A DNA stretch of 37,206 nt, taken from Alphaproteobacteria bacterium. Its GTDB lineage: Bacteria > Pseudomonadota > Alphaproteobacteria > Elsterales > Elsteraceae. This document shows positions 168 to 10,847 of this stretch, piece after piece (the stretch's first letter is position 1; each line of letters begins with the position of its first letter). The notes under the pieces are model-generated. The model did not search any database. It saw only the letters and a list, made by a program, of their open reading frames with translations, and was not told the origin of the DNA. The stretch covers positions 1 to 37,206 of the forward strand of contig JAAFIC010000028.1 in assembly GCA_013298565.1 (NCBI GenBank), in the 5' to 3' direction. The position numbers were made by a program, and so were the translations under genes.

Positions 168-1622
168 CTACGCCCAATGCGGTAAATATCCACTACGCGG
201 CCTCTGTTCATCCGCAGATTTTATAAGATCAGCTTTCAGTGCCGAGCTAATGACATTAGAGATTTGAGGACTGTTTTCCTTAGAAACCCCCAAACGCTCG
301 CGTAAACTTTCATTACGCATCATCTCGCCACTCAAAAATTTTAGAACAGCATGTTGATAACAGGCGCGTAATCTTTCACTACTTGTCATATCATTAAAAC
401 TTCGTGGAGCGAACAAGATCACTCGCATGGCATGCGTCTCCTGCCGAAACTCTGGTGGTGGCAATTGATATAGTTCAACTGCCTTAATAACCTTATCAAT
501 GCCTGAGCCGCGTTCTTCGCATAACCCTGAACGACGCATCAAATCGGCTAAAGCCTCATTTCTCGATCCCGGCGCTGAATCGATGAAGCGATCAGGGGCA
601 ATCAGGGGCACCCCTGGATTAGTGATTTCAATTCGGTTTGAGAAAATATCAACAGAGGGGCAAACGCCCTTAAGTGTCATATCTTGGTGAATAAGCGCAT
701 TCGCGACAAGTTCTCGCAAAGAAATTTCGGGATAGAGCGGCGTTTCTGCCCGAAAAGCCTGCCCAATATGCTCATTTTTCGGTAGGACTGTCTTGATGTA
801 ATCAATAATTTCATTAAAGCCATTCGCGTAACCTTTTACCTCATCCCGCGAATGGACGACGGTACTGGCTCGGTTCAGCCCTTCGTAGACAGTAACTCTA
901 ACAGCTTTCCGGCTAATAGGCAGGTCGAAACTATCCAGACGTTTCGCAAACAGTATCGCCCCCAGATTTGTAATATCAAATTTCCCACCATGATCCTGTC
1001 GGATAATTTTAGCGTTTGAAAGCCGATCAAGGATTCCAGCTAAATCGGTTGGGAGAGGCATTTTCACTAAATCAAAGTAAGAAGGATAGTCAATCAGTTT
1101 GATAATTTCTTCTGGCGGCAGAAACTGTTTTGCAACCCCTTCCTCCCAGATAAAGGGTTGAAGTTTTGTCCAAAGGTCATGTTGCCGTTCAGGATAATCG
1201 GCTAATCGAGGGGTTGCGCTGCCGATACGGATATAGGCCATCCGGTCAAATTCAACAGGATTTCGCGTAGCGGCAGGGATTTCAAGCAGGACCAATCGCC
1301 CTAGTGGATGATTGATGGTTCTAAATTGAAAGGAGGGGCCATTTTGGAGGCGCTTGGTCAGCCAAAAATCCAAAGGCTCCCCTGGACTAACGACAACAGC
1401 CGGATCAAACTTAGTTCCGATGATTTCGCCCGTTTCATCCTCAACGCCCCAAACGACATACGCATAGCGCTGGTCGTACAAACGTGCCGAATTGCTAAGT
1501 GCTGATATATATTCTCCGATTTTCTTTGGTTCTTGGAAATTTTTCTTAAATTCAACGCAATTTTGCTCAGACCGCTTGCGGCAAAAATCGTCAATCATCG
1601 CAATATCACGGGCTTCGCTCAT
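168..1622 (-). CDS. AlbA_2/Schlafen-type ATP-binding protein
   Basis: This 484-residue protein has an N-terminal AlbA_2 (Schlafen-like) region at about residues 15-130, seen in VEFKKNF followed by a VVWGVED strand. A GHKL-type ATPase region (HATPase_c_4) follows, with the motif ISLRELVANALIHQD near residues 305-320 and GSGIDKVI further on. The C-terminal part resembles a winged helix. Family members are annotated as putative regulators or RecG-like ATP-binding proteins, and the biochemical role of most is unknown. The ATG overlaps the mtaB stop by 4 bp (ATGA), with GGAG a few bases upstream inside mtaB, so it is probably translated by coupling. The gene is clearly richer in A and T than dapF-mtaB, which suggests recent acquisition. 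In many alphaproteobacteria ftsY occupies this position after mtaB. The family call is firm; the function is not. Confidence 0.85.
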   Translation of the reverse strand: MSEARDIAMIDDFCRKRSEQNCVEFKKNFQEPKKIGEYISALSNSARLYDQRYAYVVWGVEDETGEIIGTKFDPAVVVSPGEPLDFWLTKRLQNGPSFQFRTINHPLGRLVLLEIPAATRNPVEFDRMAYIRIGSATPRLADYPERQHDLWTKLQPFIWEEGVAKQFLPPEEIIKLIDYPSYFDLVKMPLPTDLAGILDRLSNAKIIRQDHGGKFDITNLGAILFAKRLDSFDLPISRKAVRVTVYEGLNRASTVVHSRDEVKGYANGFNEIIDYIKTVLPKNEHIGQAFRAETPLYPEISLRELVANALIHQDMTLKGVCPSVDIFSNRIEITNPGVPLIAPDRFIDSAPGSRNEALADLMRRSGLCEERGSGIDKVIKAVELYQLPPPEFRQETHAMRVILFAPRSFNDMTSSERLRACYQHAVLKFLSGEMMRNESLRERLGVSKENSPQISNVISSALKADLIKSADEQRPRSGYLPHWA

Positions 1623-2863
1623 GCCGCTTCTCCGCGCATCTGTTCGCCTTCGCGCGCCAGCAGGCGGGCCTGTACCCGCGCGCCGGGCATGCCGGAAACG
1701 CCGATGACCGGGACGAAATGGCGCGTGCGCCCGAGGTTTGTTTCTTCCAGCAGAATCTCTTCAACCCGGCCTACGTGGCTGTCGAGATAGCGGCTCAAGG
1801 CAGCCTCGCCCGTCGCGCGCAACTCAGCCGCGCGGGCTTTGATGATTGGGCCACTCAGTTGCGGCATTTTCGCCGCCGGGGTGCCGGGGCGGGGGGAGTA
1901 GGGGAAGACGTGCAGATAGGTTAGATGCGCTTCCGCAACGATCCTTAGAGAATCTTGAAAATGGTCGTCCGTCTCAGTGGGGAAGCCTGCAATCAAATCC
2001 GCCCCGAACACCGTATCGGGGCGCAGGCGCAGGGCTTTTTCCGCCACGGCAATCGCATCGGCGCGTAGGTGGCGGCGCTTCATGCGCTTTAGAATCAGGT
2101 CTGCCCCGGCCTGCACCGACAGGTGCAAATGCGGCATCAGCCGTTCTTCTTCGGCCAGCGCCGTCCACAGATCAGCGTCGATTTCGACCGGATCGAGGGA
2201 GGAGAGGCGCAAACGCGGCAACTCCGGCACCAGCTTCAGCACCCGGCGCACCAGCATTCCTAACGTGGGAGTGCCGGGTAAATCATGCCCGTAGGACGTA
2301 ACATCAACCCCCGTAAGCACGATTTCGGCATACCCATTCTCAACCAAGCGGCGCACCTGGGCCACCACGTCGCCCGCCGGAACCGAGCGCGAATTGCCGC
2401 GCCCATAGGGGATGATGCAGAAAGTGCAGCGGTGATCGCAGCCTTGCTGCACCTGCACGAACGCCCGCGCTCGCCCATCGAAGCCTTCAATGAGGTGCTG
2501 GGCGGTTTCGCGCACCTGCATAATGTCGTTTACCTCAACGCGGGCCTCGTTCGGCGTTACGCCCCAGGCTTCCGGCTTTAGCTTTAGATCATTGCCGATG
2601 ATGCGGTCGATTTCCGGCATGTCGGCGAATTTGGCCGTGCTCACCTGAGCAGCGCAGCCGGTAACGATAATGCGCGCATCGGGGTGATCGCGACGGGCCT
2701 TGCGAATGGCTTGACGGGCTTGGCGTTCGGCTTCCGATGTCACCGCGCAGGTGTTGAAAATAATCGCCTTATCCTCGCCCGCTTTGGTGGCAAGGTCGCG
2801 CATCACTTCCGACTCGTAGGTATTGAGGCGGCAGCCGAAGGTTACAAGCTGCGGGCCGGTCAC
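1619..2863 (-). CDS. mtaB: tRNA t6A37 methylthiotransferase MtaB
   Basis: This radical-SAM enzyme converts N6-threonylcarbamoyladenosine at tRNA position 37 to its 2-methylthio form. The 414-residue protein shows the three N-terminal cysteines of the UPF0004 domain (C11 in FGCRLN, C39 in NTCAVT, C70 in TGCAAQ). It also has the radical-SAM CxxxCxxC set (C142, C146, C149 in GCDHRCTFCIIPYGRG). Together these bind the two 4Fe-4S clusters. A TRAM-like C-terminal end follows residue 350. Length and motif order fit the MtaB branch better than MiaB or RimO. Translation starts at GTG, overlapping the dapF stop as GTGA, so the two genes form one operon. The next gene downstream overlaps in the same way. 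Confidence 0.95.
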   Translation of the reverse strand: MTGPQLVTFGCRLNTYESEVMRDLATKAGEDKAIIFNTCAVTSEAERQARQAIRKARRDHPDARIIVTGCAAQVSTAKFADMPEIDRIIGNDLKLKPEAWGVTPNEARVEVNDIMQVRETAQHLIEGFDGRARAFVQVQQGCDHRCTFCIIPYGRGNSRSVPAGDVVAQVRRLVENGYAEIVLTGVDVTSYGHDLPGTPTLGMLVRRVLKLVPELPRLRLSSLDPVEIDADLWTALAEEERLMPHLHLSVQAGADLILKRMKRRHLRADAIAVAEKALRLRPDTVFGADLIAGFPTETDDHFQDSLRIVAEAHLTYLHVFPYSPRPGTPAAKMPQLSGPIIKARAAELRATGEAALSRYLDSHVGRVEEILLEETNLGRTRHFVPVIGVSGMPGARVQARLLAREGEQMRGEAA

Positions 2864-3705
2864 GCGAAGCGCTCCAGCGCTAAATCGCCGACGAATTCAC
2901 CAAAAAAGCTAATAGCGATGGGGCCAGTCATCAGCACATGACCGTCTTCCTCGCGCCATTCGAGCGTAAGGTCGCCGCCGTCCATCGTAACAATCATCTG
3001 CCGATCCGTCAGCCCGCGCCGGATCGCCGCTACCGCTGCCGCACAGGCCCCCGAACCGCAGGCGCGCGTAATGCCCGCGCCGCGTTCCCACACGCGGAAG
3101 CGGATATGGTCCCGCGCCAAAACCGAGACGATGCCGATATTCGCCCGTTCCGGCAGCAGCGGATGATGTTCGGCCTGCGGCCCCCAGGAGGCAAGATCGA
3201 CCGCCTCGGCATCGGGCACGAAGAAGGTGATGTGCGGGTTGCCCATATTGCTGGCGACGCCATCGTCGAGCGGACCCAGGCGCATTGGCACGTGCAGCGT
3301 ATCGAGGGCTTCTGCGAGCGGAATGGCGTCCCACCCCAGTCGCGCTGGCCCCATATCGACGCTCACGATATTTGTATCGACCCGTTCGGACGGCAACATC
3401 CCCGCCAGGGTTTCGATGACAACCGCGCCGCGCCCTTCGGCCTGCATAGCAAGATGGGCGACGCAGCGGGTAGCATTGCCGCACGCCCCGGATTCCGAGC
3501 CGTCGGGGTTGAAAATCCGCATGAAAAGGTCCGCCCGCCCATCGCTCGGCGGCTCCATCACGATCAGTTGATCGAAGCCCACGCCCGTGCGCCTATCCCC
3601 CACCGCCCGAATCCAATCGCGCGGCAACTCTAGCGGTGCCCGGCGGCCTTCGAGGATGACGAAATCATTCCCCAGGCCGTGCATTTTCAAAAACGACAAT
3701 CCCAT
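2860..3705 (-). CDS. dapF: diaminopimelate epimerase
   Basis: DapF interconverts LL- and meso-diaminopimelate, the penultimate step of lysine synthesis and the source of the peptidoglycan cross-linking residue. The N-terminal MHGLGNDF motif, the first catalytic cysteine C75 (SGACGNATRC) and the second, C216 (GITRACGSGAC), are all intact. Numbering is from the ATG at 3705, giving 281 residues. A TTG six bases further upstream is also in frame, but the ATG has AGGGG at proper spacing and gives the usual family start. The stop overlaps the mtaB GTG. The pairing dapF-mtaB is common in alphaproteobacteria. The gene faces the vapB-like gene across a 117-bp divergent region. Confidence 0.97.
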   Translation of the reverse strand: MGLSFLKMHGLGNDFVILEGRRAPLELPRDWIRAVGDRRTGVGFDQLIVMEPPSDGRADLFMRIFNPDGSESGACGNATRCVAHLAMQAEGRGAVVIETLAGMLPSERVDTNIVSVDMGPARLGWDAIPLAEALDTLHVPMRLGPLDDGVASNMGNPHITFFVPDAEAVDLASWGPQAEHHPLLPERANIGIVSVLARDHIRFRVWERGAGITRACGSGACAAAVAAIRRGLTDRQMIVTMDGGDLTLEWREEDGHVLMTGPIAISFFGEFVGDLALERFA

Positions 3706-3822
3706 GCACAACCCCTAATCGGAATGGCCGGGGGAATCAATCCACGCCTCGCGCATGGGGGGATTTCATCCCTCGCCTCTCCGAGTATTTCGGTCTATTC
3801 TGAAACCTGGATGGGGGGATAA

Positions 3823-4071
3823 ATGGCCATCACGATTATAAATTTGGAAACCGAGACCGCGATTCGACGGCTGGCAACCCTCACGGGGAAAGACCCCAGC
3901 ACCGCTGTTCGGGGCGCTGTCGAGGCCGCGCTGGCGAAAGTTGGAAAGAATCGTTTCTGGGAAGCGCGAATGGGGACCGTGCGTGCTAAACTCGCCTCGG
4001 CAGAGGCCGACCCGCACGAGCGCGCGCGCACTGCCAATAAGCCTTTCTACGATGCCTTGTGGGATCAATGA
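3823..4071 (+). CDS. orphan VapB-like (PSK family) antitoxin
   Basis: This is an 82-residue protein with the N-terminal pattern of Rv0623/PSK-type VapB antitoxins: a short ITIINLETE strand, then a helix with LATLTGKDPSTAVRGAVE. Such proteins form ribbon-helix-helix-like DNA-binding dimers, and their C-terminal tails wrap a PIN-domain VapC toxin. The ATG has a run of six G residues (GGGGGG) just upstream as ribosome-binding site. No PIN-domain gene follows. Instead an unrelated 278-residue protein begins 6 bp after the stop. The antitoxin may be an orphan regulator, the survivor of a broken vapBC pair, or partner of the unknown neighbour. The family call rests on weak N-terminal similarity judged by eye. 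Confidence 0.65.
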   Translation: MAITIINLETETAIRRLATLTGKDPSTAVRGAVEAALAKVGKNRFWEARMGTVRAKLASAEADPHERARTANKPFYDALWDQ

Positions 4072-4077
4072 CGCTGG

Positions 4078-4914
4078 ATGGCCAATCTTACGCTTTCCAA
4101 CCGCCGCCGCCGGTTTTATCTTTGGCTCGATCCGCGTTTGCCCAGCGTGCGGAAGCAGGTAAGCCTATTCGGGCGCGTGGAGACGGAGGCGGCTGAAGAG
4201 GACGCCCCCACCGTAACGCTTACCGTCGCTGGTGCGCCCGCCCCCAGCCCCAGCGGCGTCGCGCAACCGGCGCAGCGGCGCGTTCATCGGGCGGAACTTG
4301 TGCTGGAGAACCACCGCGCCCAATACCTGCCCGGTTATCCCGCCCGTGACCGCGCCGCCCTAGTGTTTGATCGGCTGGAAGATGCTTGGCTTTACCACGA
4401 TATGCACCATGAAGCCCTCAGCGGCCATGTGCTAAAATTAGCAGAAACGCGCGGCCTGTTCATCGTATCGTTGCATGATTCGCTGTGGACCGAGATTCTG
4501 GCGGGCTACGATAGCGAGGCGGTCGATGCTTCCGTCGCCCGCGCCTATTGGGGTGGGGAGACCACCACCGGGCGCATTCCCGATGGCGTGATCTTCAATC
4601 GGCTGCGGCGACCCGAGCGGATTCCGGCCCTAGAAGGTCTATTCTACGGCACCTTGCGCTTCCCCGATCAGCAGTTGGAGCGGCACGATCTCCCTCGGCC
4701 CGCTGCTGTGCGTGCGCGGCTGGCGGCTTGGGGCGTGGGAGACTGGAGCCTGGTTCACGAACCCGGCGAGGAAAGCGAGGCCGTGGCCCTCGATCCTTCC
4801 GACCCAGACGATGACGACGACGACGATCTCTTTACCGCCGAGGCAGAGGCCGACGACGATGACCGCGCGCGCGCCGTTGCCAGACACACGACAGAAACGG
4901 CAAAAGACGCCTAA
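4078..4914 (+). CDS. unknown 278-residue protein, acidic C-terminal tail
   Basis: I do not recognise this protein. It begins basic (NRRRRFYLWLDPRL). It has a Pro/Ala-rich linker near residues 50-65, then a folded-looking core of about residues 70-225 with DRLEDAWLYHDMHHEALSGH and LHDSLWTEILAGYDSE. It ends in an acidic tail containing seven consecutive aspartates followed by an Asp/Glu-rich stretch. The histidines and acids of the core could be catalytic or metal-binding, but no named motif is evident. The gene lies 6 bp after the VapB-like antitoxin and has no clear ribosome-binding site of its own, so translation is probably coupled. There are no membrane segments and no signal peptide. Codon use is GC-rich like the neighbours, so it is a real gene and not a shadow. 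Confidence 0.8.
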   Translation: MANLTLSNRRRRFYLWLDPRLPSVRKQVSLFGRVETEAAEEDAPTVTLTVAGAPAPSPSGVAQPAQRRVHRAELVLENHRAQYLPGYPARDRAALVFDRLEDAWLYHDMHHEALSGHVLKLAETRGLFIVSLHDSLWTEILAGYDSEAVDASVARAYWGGETTTGRIPDGVIFNRLRRPERIPALEGLFYGTLRFPDQQLERHDLPRPAAVRARLAAWGVGDWSLVHEPGEESEAVALDPSDPDDDDDDDLFTAEAEADDDDRARAVARHTTETAKDA

Positions 4915-5095
4915 GCTCTCACCTGTTACGGCAAGCGCGCCGGATAAGCGACGAGTCGATAACAGAAAATTTAGAATCATCCCGCTCGACAGCAGGAAGG
5001 GGCTTTGCTACGATTGTGTTACTGAAATGTCAGCAGGGCCTCTGTGAGCCTTCTCCTGGTGGAGGGGGGTGCACGGCCCAGGTTCGGGACCGATC

Positions 5096-6013
5096 ATGTG
5101 CCGTTGGCTTGCCTATACCGGTGCCCCTCTGCGGCTTCACTCACTCCTGTTTGAAGCGCAGAACTCGCTGATTAACCAGTCGCTCGCCTGCCAGCGCGGC
5201 AGTGTTGCCACCAATGGCGACGGGTTCGGCGTGGGCTGGTACGGAACCCAAGAAAAGCCGGGCCTCTACCGTGATATTCGCCCGGCTTGGAACGACGATA
5301 ACCTTCGCAGCCTTGCCGAACAAATCGAAGCGCGGCTGTTCTTTGCCCATGTTCGCGCCTCAACCGGCACGCCGACGACGCGGCAAAACTGCCACCCCTT
5401 CCGCCACGGCAACTGGTTGTTCATGCACAATGGCCGGATTGGCGGCTACGATAAGCTGCGGCGCGATCTGGAATTCCGCATCGCCCCGCACCTGTACAAT
5501 GACCGCATCGGCACGACCGACAGCGAAATCATTTTTCTGCTGCTGATCAGCAACGGGCTTTTAACAGACCCGGCGCGCGCCTATCGCCAGACCATCGCCG
5601 AGATTGAAAGCGCGATGCAGGCCAATGGCGTGACCGAACCATTGCGTTTCACCGCCTGCGCTACCGATGGGCAAACGCTGCACGCCATCCGCTATTCCTC
5701 CGATAACAGCGCGCCCTCGCTCTTCTACGCTCAAGGGCAAGAAGTGCAGGTGGAAAACGGTGCCTGCCACTTCCCCTGCGGCACGGGGGCGGTGCTGGTG
5801 CTCTCCGAACCGCTCGACCGCGACGATGCCTGCTGGAGTGAAGTGCCGGAAGGCTATTTCCTCACCGCTTCAGCGCACCGGGTGGCGCTAGAGCCGGTGA
5901 TGGGGGTGGAGAAGATTGGTGTCCGAGAACCCGGAAGCCTAAAGGGAAAGATAGTGATTGGGCCTGACTTCGAGGCTCCCTTACCCGCTTTTCTGGATGG
6001 CGCGCACTCTTGA
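5096..6013 (+). CDS. class II glutamine amidotransferase (GATase_4/EgtC-like)
   Basis: This is a 305-residue Ntn-type amidotransferase of the YafJ/EgtC group. The start was set at the ATG giving MCRWLAY, because removal of Met exposes Cys2 as the nucleophile. A GTG upstream at 5069 would bury it. Supporting motifs are NGDGFGVGWYG near residues 40-50, AHVRASTGTPTTRQNCHPF and FMHNGRI near residues 85-120, all typical of the glutaminase fold. The family hydrolyses glutamine or gamma-glutamyl amides; EgtC acts in ergothioneine synthesis. No ergothioneine gene is nearby, so the substrate is unknown. The gene stands alone between the unknown gene and rbfA, with about 180 bp of upstream DNA in which I found no clear promoter. 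Confidence 0.9.
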   Translation: MCRWLAYTGAPLRLHSLLFEAQNSLINQSLACQRGSVATNGDGFGVGWYGTQEKPGLYRDIRPAWNDDNLRSLAEQIEARLFFAHVRASTGTPTTRQNCHPFRHGNWLFMHNGRIGGYDKLRRDLEFRIAPHLYNDRIGTTDSEIIFLLLISNGLLTDPARAYRQTIAEIESAMQANGVTEPLRFTACATDGQTLHAIRYSSDNSAPSLFYAQGQEVQVENGACHFPCGTGAVLVLSEPLDRDDACWSEVPEGYFLTASAHRVALEPVMGVEKIGVREPGSLKGKIVIGPDFEAPLPAFLDGAHS

Positions 6014-7977: not shown

Positions 7978-10101
7978 ATGTTCACTATGTTCAAAAAAGA
8001 AATTCAGTGGGGTGGCCGCACGCTGACGCTGGAAACGGGCCGTATCGCCCGTCAAGCCGATGGCGCTGTGCTGGCAACCTATGGCGAAACCACAGTGCTC
8101 TGCACGGCGGTGTTCAATAAATCGGTAAAGCCGGGCGTGGATTTTTTCCCGCTGACGGTGAATTACCAAGAAAAAACCTTTGCTGCCGGTAAAATTCCGG
8201 GGGGTTTTTTCAAGCGCGAAGGCCGCCCGTCGGAAAAGGAAGTTCTGGTCTCGCGCCTGATCGACCGCCCGATCCGCCCGCTGTTTGTGGAGGGTTTTCG
8301 CAATGAAACCCAGGTGGTCTGCACTGTTCTCAGTCACGATATGGAAAACGATCCCGATATCGTTGCCATGATTGGCGCGTCTGCCGCGCTCACCCTGTCA
8401 GGCTCGCCGTTCCTCGGCCCTATCGGTGCGGCGCGCGTCGCCTATATCGACGGCCAGTATGTGCTGAATCCAACTCCCGCGCAGCTCGATGCCTCAAGCC
8501 TCGACCTCGTGGTTGCGGGCACTGTCGAAGGCGTGCTGATGGTTGAATCGGAAGCCAAAGAGCTTCCTGAAGATATTATGCTCGGCGCGGTCAACTTCGG
8601 GCACGATCAGTTCCAGGCCGTGATCGACGCGATCATAGATCTCGCCAATGCCGCCGCTAAGGAACCCTACGATCTTCCGGCCCCTCCCGAAGCCGAAGCT
8701 GCGATTGCCGCCCGTCTGAAAACCGTTGCCGCCGATAAGCTGACGGTTGCCTATTCGGAAGTGCAAAAGCAGGCGCGGTACGAAAAAGTTGGTGCGGTAA
8801 AGTCCGAAACGGTCAAGCTGCTGGTGGCAGAAGGCTTCGCCGCCGATCTCGTTTCCGCTAAGTTCAAGGACTTGGAAGCCGACATCGTGCGCGGCAACGT
8901 GCTGAAAACCAAGCGCCGCATTGATGGCCGCGACCTTGTGACCGTTCGCCCGATTGTGGCGGAAGTGGGCATCCTGCCGCGTGCTCATGGTTCTACCCTG
9001 TTCACGCGCGGTGAAACGCAAGCCCTCGTGGTCGCAACTCTCGGCACTGGCCAGGACGAGCAGATCATTGATGCGCTGGCCGGCGAATATCGCGAAAACT
9101 TCCTGCTGCATTATAATTTCCCCCCCTACTCGGTGGGTGAAGCAGGCCGCATGGGGTCGCCAGGTCGCCGTGAAATCGGCCACGGCAAGCTCGCGTGGCG
9201 CGCAGTGCATCCGGTACTGCCGGGGAAAGAAAAGTTCCCGTACACCATCCGCGTTGTCTCGGAGATCACCGAGTCGAACGGCTCCTCGTCGATGGCCTCG
9301 GTCTGTGGCGCGTCGCTAGCGATGATGGATGCAGGCGTGCCGCTGTTGCGCCCTGTTGCCGGGATTGCGATGGGTCTGATTAAGGAAGGCGCGGATTTCG
9401 CCGTTCTGTCAGACATTCTGGGCGACGAAGATCACCTGGGCGATATGGACTTCAAGGTTGCGGGGACGGAAGTCGGCATCACCGCCCTTCAAATGGACAT
9501 TAAAATCACCTCGATCACGCGCGATATTATGAAAATCGCGCTCGATCAGGCGAAAGATGGCCGTTTGCATATTTTGGGCGAAATGGCCAAGGGGCTAGAG
9601 GCGCCGCGCGGTCAGGTGTCGGCCAATGCGCCGCGCGTGACCAGCTTCCAGATTCCGAAAGACAAGATCCGCGAAGTCATCGGTTCGGGCGGTAAGGTGA
9701 TCCGCGAGATCACTGAAACGACCGGCACTAAGATCGACATTGAAGACGATGGCACGATTAAAGTGGCGGCCAGCGATCCCGAAAAGGCGCAAGCCGCGAT
9801 CGATTGGATCAAAGGCATCGTTGCTGAACCGGAAGTTGGCGTTATCTACACGGGTAAAGTGGTGAAAACGGTCGATTTCGGCGCGTTCATCAACTTCCTC
9901 GGTAGCCGCGACGGCCTTGTACATATCTCCGAACTCGCCCCGAAGCGCGTCGCCAAGACCGAAGACGTGGTAAAGGTTGGCGATAGCGTAAAGGTGAAAT
10001 GCCTCGGTTTCGATGATCGCGGCAAAATCCGCCTGTCGATGAAAGTCGTCGATCAGGAAACGGGCGAAGATTTGTCGAAGAAGGAAGACGCTGAGGCTTA
10101 A
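7978..10101 (+). CDS. pnp: polynucleotide phosphorylase (PNPase)
   Basis: PNPase degrades RNA 3' to 5' phosphorolytically and is a core subunit of degradosomes. Two RNase PH domains (about residues 10-220 and 300-540) are joined by a helical linker. They are followed by a KH domain near residues 555-610 ([12 protein letters not shown]) and an S1 domain near residues 615-690 ([17 protein letters not shown]). The start is set at the second ATG (7978), giving 707 residues, because AAGGA at 7967-7971 abuts the first ATG at 7972 and is correctly spaced only for the second. The last 197 bp occur again at 10651-10847 as a diverged partial copy. Two hairpins follow the stop. Confidence 0.98.
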
Positions 10102-10340: not shown

Positions 10341-10625
10341 ATGATTGCCGTTCATCCGGGACGCATTTTGAAACGCGAGTTACAGGCGCGGGCCTTGTCG
10401 GCCAATAAACTTGCGCTGGCTCTCCGGCTGCCTTCGGGCCGAATCACGGATATTCTGAACAGCAAGCGCGGGATTTCGCCCAATACCGCCTTACGTCTTG
10501 GGCGCTATTTTGGTAATAGCGCCCGCTTTTGGCTCACCCTTCAGACGGATTTCGAGCTTGCTGTGGCCGAGCGGGAAACCGGCGCGCGTATTCTGACCGA
10601 AGTGAACCCCGCCGAAGCGGCTTAA
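10341..10625 (+). CDS. higA: HigA-family antitoxin, orphan
   Basis: This is a 94-residue XRE-type helix-turn-helix antitoxin. HPGRILKRELQARALSANKLA opens the fold; the recognition helix lies around LPSGRITDILNSKRGIS, followed by the HigA hallmark ALRLGRYFGNSARFWLTLQTDFEL. HigA normally neutralises the ribosome-dependent mRNase HigB and represses the operon. No higB is present on either side. The gene sits between pnp and a partial second copy of the pnp 3' end. After the TAA the same reading frame stays open through a short linker into that S1-domain fragment, to 10847. It may be a free-standing regulator or a relic of an acquired module. Confidence 0.9.
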   Translation: MIAVHPGRILKRELQARALSANKLALALRLPSGRITDILNSKRGISPNTALRLGRYFGNSARFWLTLQTDFELAVAERETGARILTEVNPAEAA

Positions 10626-10650
10626 GACTGCCCCTCATACGTCCACAGCC

Positions 10651-10847
10651 GCCGCGACGGCCTTGTGCATATCTCTGAACTTGCCTCGAAGCGCGTCGCC
10701 AAGACCGAAGACGGGGTGAAGGTTGGCGATAGCGTAAAGGTAAAATGCCTCGGCTTCGATGATCGCGGCAAAATCCGCCTGTCGATGAAAGTCGTCGATC
10801 AGGAAACGGGTGAAGATTTGTCGAAGAAGGAAGACGCGGACCTGTAA
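10651..10847 (+). pseudogene. partial second copy of the pnp 3' end (S1 domain)
   Basis: This 197-bp stretch aligns without gaps to pnp 9905-10101 (constant offset 746) with about 14 differences, or roughly 93% identity. It encodes the distal S1 domain from [10 protein letters not shown] to the end, finishing KKEDADL where pnp ends KKEDAEA. Of the nine differences before the final codons, seven are synonymous and two change residues (Pro to Ser, Val to Gly). The frame is intact and in phase with the upstream higA frame. A GTG at 10665 could start a 60-residue peptide, but there is no good ribosome-binding site. Two explanations fit: a pnp tail imported from a related strain, or the right-hand junction of an insertion at the pnp 3' end. 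Confidence 0.9.

Follow-up and report, generated by a model that had tools for sequence, protein, structure and literature searches.

Organization of the locus

The window, meaning the whole stretch of DNA that was analysed, is contig C48 (37,206 bp) of a 3.02-Mb Elstera genome. It contains a gene for an 82-residue VapB-like antitoxin that is followed, after 6 bp, by an open reading frame for a 278-residue protein (Table 1). An earlier note on this DNA had described both reading frames, their coordinates, their common strand and their close spacing, and all of these were confirmed when the sequence was re-read. It had also pointed out that the position after the antitoxin, usually occupied by a VapC nuclease, is taken by a protein of unknown fold. 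The absence of VapC was borne out by profile search, which found no PIN/VapC match on contig C48, the 278-residue protein included, and nine on other contigs of the genome. The locus therefore lacks the adjacent PIN-domain toxin by which a VapBC module is recognized. On the left lies a gene that, from its sequence rather than a family search, we take to be dapF-like.

Table 1 Features at and around the vapB/278-residue locus of the window
Feature	Position	Strand	Basis or comment
dapF-like gene, left flank common to window and E. litoralis	2860..3711	-	DNA alignment
Segment without E. litoralis counterpart	3742..4077	.	DNA alignment; E. litoralis holds 1,979 bp there
Gene for an 82-residue VapB-like antitoxin, probably orphan (PF07704 / Rv0623-like)	3823..4071	+	Pfam; neither of the other two Elstera genomes has a DNA match or a close protein match
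Spacer, 6 bp	4072..4077	+	Size equals the vapB-vapC spacer of family relative L100 (+6)
Elstera-specific 278-aa protein; core about residues 1-240, variable acidic tail	4078..4914	+	Orthologue comparison
GAC trinucleotide run coding for the polyaspartate tract	4807..4826	+	6.7 copies
Promoter-like site TCGACA-17-TACGAT, 5' of the amidotransferase gene	4986..5014	+	Present in both Elstera relatives too
Class II glutamine amidotransferase (PF13230)	5096..6013	+	Neighbour of the 278-aa gene in 3 of 3 Elstera genomes

Elsewhere in the window, the region 10341-10840 contains another lone antitoxin-like gene, encoding 94 residues with a HigA-like helix-turn-helix by eye (20.5 bits against PF01381, short of the cut-off of 23). 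No HigB-like frame was noticed beside it, and a 190-bp copy of the 3' end of pnp comes after it (9905-10094 and 10651-10840, 94.7% identical). In the related genome G001, DNA alignment shows pnp and the next shared gene without an equivalent of the 10341-10840 insertion between them.

A VapB-like gene without a VapC partner

Identification of the first gene as VapB-like, as proposed earlier, is upheld by a match to PF07704 (35.7 bits against a cut-off of 28.3) that spans profile positions 1-80 of 82, and the 82-residue frame is intact and matched over its full length. In these respects, and in the short spacer to the next gene, the protein resembles the Rv0623-like VapBs of VapBC modules, and its C-terminal DALW also occurs in VapBs of E. 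litoralis (L104) and G001 (L106). It differs from them in that no VapC comes next, its profile score is weak and it has no close homologue in the genus. A PF07704 profile scan of nine genomes of the family gave 18 matches, among which the window protein scored 34.4 bits and 12 others scored 57.8-98.9 bits. Because the sequence is divergent and its profile score low, it is not certain that the protein behaves as an antitoxin.

Relatives of this VapB are scarce. Protein searches found no homologue at E 0.001 in the other 142 genomes and no match in plasmids, and the segment 3742-4077 had no DNA match in the other eight genomes of the family. Among 385 genomes of the class, seven weak protein matches were obtained besides the window itself. 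Two of the seven have internal stops and one lies inside an 865-codon frame; the downstream genes of the other four were inspected. At two of these four loci (L137 and L140) the gene located 3' of the match encodes a PIN domain according to Pfam; at L135 a VapC-like frame lies downstream, by eye only; and L141 looked like a chance match.

In the family as a whole, a PIN-domain gene directly follows the PF07704 gene in 12 of the 18 cases, at a distance of -16 to +13 bp from the stop codon of vapB (five partners recognized by position, seven by Pfam), and the VapC frames are 129-177 residues long. The spacing of +6 in the window falls within this range, which places the 278-residue gene in the vapC slot. 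The six matches without a direct PIN partner include, besides the window, L099, where the frame tested had no Pfam match; L107, a partial match below cut-off with an internal stop; L108, where the match ends at the contig end; L111, with no PIN match on its contig; and L109. The last of these, from contig C32 of G001 (reverse strand, about positions 1358-1740 of L109), has after its vapB a short frame that keeps just the two terminal parts of a vapC, apparently through an internal deletion. Deletion of vapC thus seems to happen in the genus. No trace of a vapC was recognized in the window, so the former presence of one at this locus is argued by analogy.

The 278-residue protein is conserved in Elstera

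The earlier note had called the second protein unrecognized, and it has indeed no match in Pfam, NCBIfam, PHROGs or PADLOC; the best match among PDB sequences was at E 0.29. Homologues occur in three of 143 genomes, the window's own included, and are absent from six other genomes of the family. The three are the Elstera genomes compared here, one per species: the window genome, G001 (orthologue on contig C32, 75% identity) and G002, evidently E. litoralis Dia-1 (orthologue on contig NZ_LAJY01000063.1, 83% identity). In the 385 class genomes, alignment A1 gave a list of 53 genomes at E up to 1; the true carriers among them are the window genome and G001, and all others stand at E 0.01 or worse. 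With the core alignment A3, 398 genomes of the phylum yielded no credible homologue; two weak matches (E 0.007) were attributed by eye to chance, one lying in an antisense-looking open frame and the other in a photolyase-looking frame. Plasmids, phages and viral contigs gave no credible homologue either, and at 50 amidotransferase loci the only one was that of E. litoralis. A single-protein scan of the genome-contig collection returned no match, which carries little weight because it also missed E. litoralis, a member of that collection.

The core of the protein is under purifying selection in Elstera. Its dN/dS is 0.10 between the window and E. litoralis, 0.09 between the window and G001, and 0.08 between E. 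litoralis and G001, and the three copies differ mainly at third codon positions (in the core, window against E. litoralis, 22, 19 and 99 changes at the first, second and third). The window copy and that of E. litoralis carry 16 and 9 amino-acid changes in the core, compared to 5 and 3 in the adjoining amidotransferase. The core thus has no excess of changes relative to the neighbouring gene, so the window copy does not look as if it is decaying, although decay after a recent event would be missed by this comparison.

Two features that had been singled out as unusual fared unevenly. The polyaspartate tail is acidic in all three orthologues, with 12-16 aspartate or glutamate residues of 34-37, but its sequence is poorly conserved (dN 0.42-0.89, as against 0.09-0.12 for the core) and in the window it is encoded by the GAC repeat. 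In the His/Asp-rich core DAWLYHDMHHEAL, all three orthologues have the same DAWLYHD and final AL, but the later histidines vary, with MHH in the window and MHR and TNR in the relatives.

AlphaFold2 modelling of the protein from the three-sequence alignment gave unusable models, with a mean pLDDT of 34.0 at full length and 37.5 for the core. A Foldseek search with these low-pLDDT models found nothing at E 0.001 or better, and its matches were disregarded. A resemblance by eye to an ADP-ribosyltransferase-like fold was dropped as being without any support. We expect the protein to be soluble and cytosolic, with a disordered acidic tail, and to act independently of VapB.

The 5' end of the gene differs from that of its relatives

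The earlier note had raised the possibility that the two genes form a novel pair, a view it held to be refuted if they were not linked in relatives, and this is the case. They stand together in just one of the three genomes that carry the 278-residue gene, as both other Elstera genomes have it without an adjoining vapB. The amidotransferase gene, in turn, lies directly downstream in all three. Upstream of the 278-residue gene is a methyltransferase gene in G001 and, in E. litoralis, a gene for 98 residues (PRC-barrel-like by eye, without a Pfam match) that is preceded by a GSDH-like gene (PF07995).

DNA of the window matches that of E. litoralis over 1615-3741, a block whose two genes read as mtaB-like and dapF, and again from the first base of the start codon (A, 4078) onwards. 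Between dapF and the 278-residue gene the window has 336 bp with vapB, whereas E. litoralis has the 1,979 bp noted above. The GSDH-like and 98-residue genes occupy this interval in E. litoralis (L034, 3679-5383), which shows that it is variable between species. The match with G001 starts at 4070. A 5' leader block (GATCTTGCGGTATCGC...) common to E. litoralis and G001 is missing from the window. Judging from these alignments, the window gene has evidently lost its leader and has vapB in its place. As the relatives share the leader despite different upstream genes, a gene with this leader most likely represents the ancestral state, from which the window has departed. The relatives thus resemble the window in their 278-residue orthologues and downstream neighbour, and differ from it in keeping the gene's own leader and ribosome-binding site and in having no vapB. 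By the same comparisons, the 278-residue gene appears to be older than the vapB junction, unrelated to vapB and, as far as searched, specific to the genus.

Before the 278-residue frame, the anti-SD match is weak in the window, with a duplex energy of -4.0 kcal/mol at a site inside vapB, as against -6.9 and -11.8 kcal/mol in the relatives, both of which have purine-rich ribosome-binding sites there. The vapB gene itself has a strong ribosome-binding site (-9.3 kcal/mol). Translational coupling of the 278-residue frame to vapB, which the earlier note had called apparent, is plausible. It would be comparable to the coupling proposed for vapB-vapC of Acidovorax citrulli from the overlap of the two genes (PMC4701950). 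Neither a sigma-70-like promoter nor a clear operator palindrome was found upstream of vapB in the window. We infer that the 278-residue gene may be transcribed from upstream of vapB; since no promoter-like site was found there, expression of either gene from that side is proposed with reserve.

Origin of the arrangement

The earlier note had left a choice between a broken module and a novel toxin-antitoxin partner. The broken module is supported; the novel partner is not, given that the genes are unlinked in relatives and that VapC is the usual partner in the family. The vapB gene is likely an orphan remnant of a VapBC module, and has captured the 5' end of a gene that is specific to the genus and unrelated to it; the resulting pair resembles a toxin-antitoxin system but is very probably not one.

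A new type II pair, in which the 278-residue protein would be a toxin of new fold neutralized by the VapB-like protein, is what the antitoxin-first order, the 6-bp spacer, the intact antitoxin and the missing VapC would suggest. However, in neither relative does an antitoxin of the PF07704 family adjoin the putative toxin, and neither has a homologue of the window vapB at E 0.001; the protein is longer than the VapC frames of the family (129-177 residues), and the breakpoint at the start codon marks a secondary junction. The lack of linkage in relatives largely refutes this explanation, which we regard as highly improbable. Still less credible is that the 278-residue frame is not a real gene: it has no family match, but its conservation in three species, the excess of third-position changes and a dN/dS of about 0.1 refute a spurious frame. 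A third explanation is that vapB arrived alone, was never part of a VapBC module here, and serves as an orphan antitoxin against other or invading VapCs. Such anti-addiction by orphan antitoxins is proposed in the literature (PMC7354431), and the genome's nine PIN matches outside this contig would offer possible targets, but the spacer fits a former vapBC junction, and we hold a lone arrival to be unlikely.

The remnant reading also has a functional extension, regulatory capture, whereby VapB would repress its own promoter, thus control the 278-residue gene, and so give it a new expression pattern. The loss of the gene's native leader and ribosome-binding site, the strong ribosome-binding site of vapB with its stop codon 6 bp before the next frame, and the continued constraint on the core are consistent with it. 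Autorepression by VapB antitoxins is usually most effective when the toxin acts as co-repressor, and here the toxin is gone; nor was a promoter or a clear operator palindrome found before vapB. We therefore consider such control possible but rather doubtful.

Under the preferred explanation, an orphan remnant of a VapBC module, vapBC would once have lain between dapF and the 278-residue gene, or would have been imported there with a rearrangement. In the simplest account of this inferred history, vapC was lost along with the leader of the 278-residue gene. To within a few bases of the start codon, the rearrangement would have stripped this gene of its leader and ribosome-binding site, so that it is now preceded by vapB with its stop codon and by a 6-bp spacer like that before a vapC. 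The encoded protein, older, unrelated, genus-specific and probably cytosolic, would keep its own job. The copies in the relatives have a leader of their own, and the amidotransferase gene is preceded by a separate promoter-like site. In the window, ribosomes coming off the end of vapB probably translate the 278-residue protein, whose gene may thereby fall under whatever control acts on vapB.

Orphan VapBs, and canonical antitoxins paired with proteins outside toxin-antitoxin systems, are described in a review (PMC7354431), and the window locus is like the orphan antitoxins treated there in having a lone antitoxin gene beside a gene that is not a known toxin. It is unlike them in that relatives show the neighbour to have lost its leader, and in that vapB ends 6 bp before the start codon. 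Literature searches on orphan VapB/VapC antitoxins, on Elstera and on translational coupling brought up no description of the locus; a paper that mentions Elstera deals with defence-gene density in Elsteraceae.

The 278-residue protein, strongly conserved, unstudied and genus-specific, is of modest interest in itself. The locus also serves as a caution that gene order and spacing, the usual clue to new toxin-antitoxin pairs, can mislead, as the layout of such a pair can also arise when a deletion or replacement brings an antitoxin gene up against an unrelated one. More tentatively, the orphan VapB may have taken over the 5' end of the 278-residue gene in a functional sense, subjecting it to translation from the toxin slot and to autoregulation of the antitoxin type. 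If true, this capture would be a natural case in which the architecture of a toxin-antitoxin operon rewires an unrelated gene.
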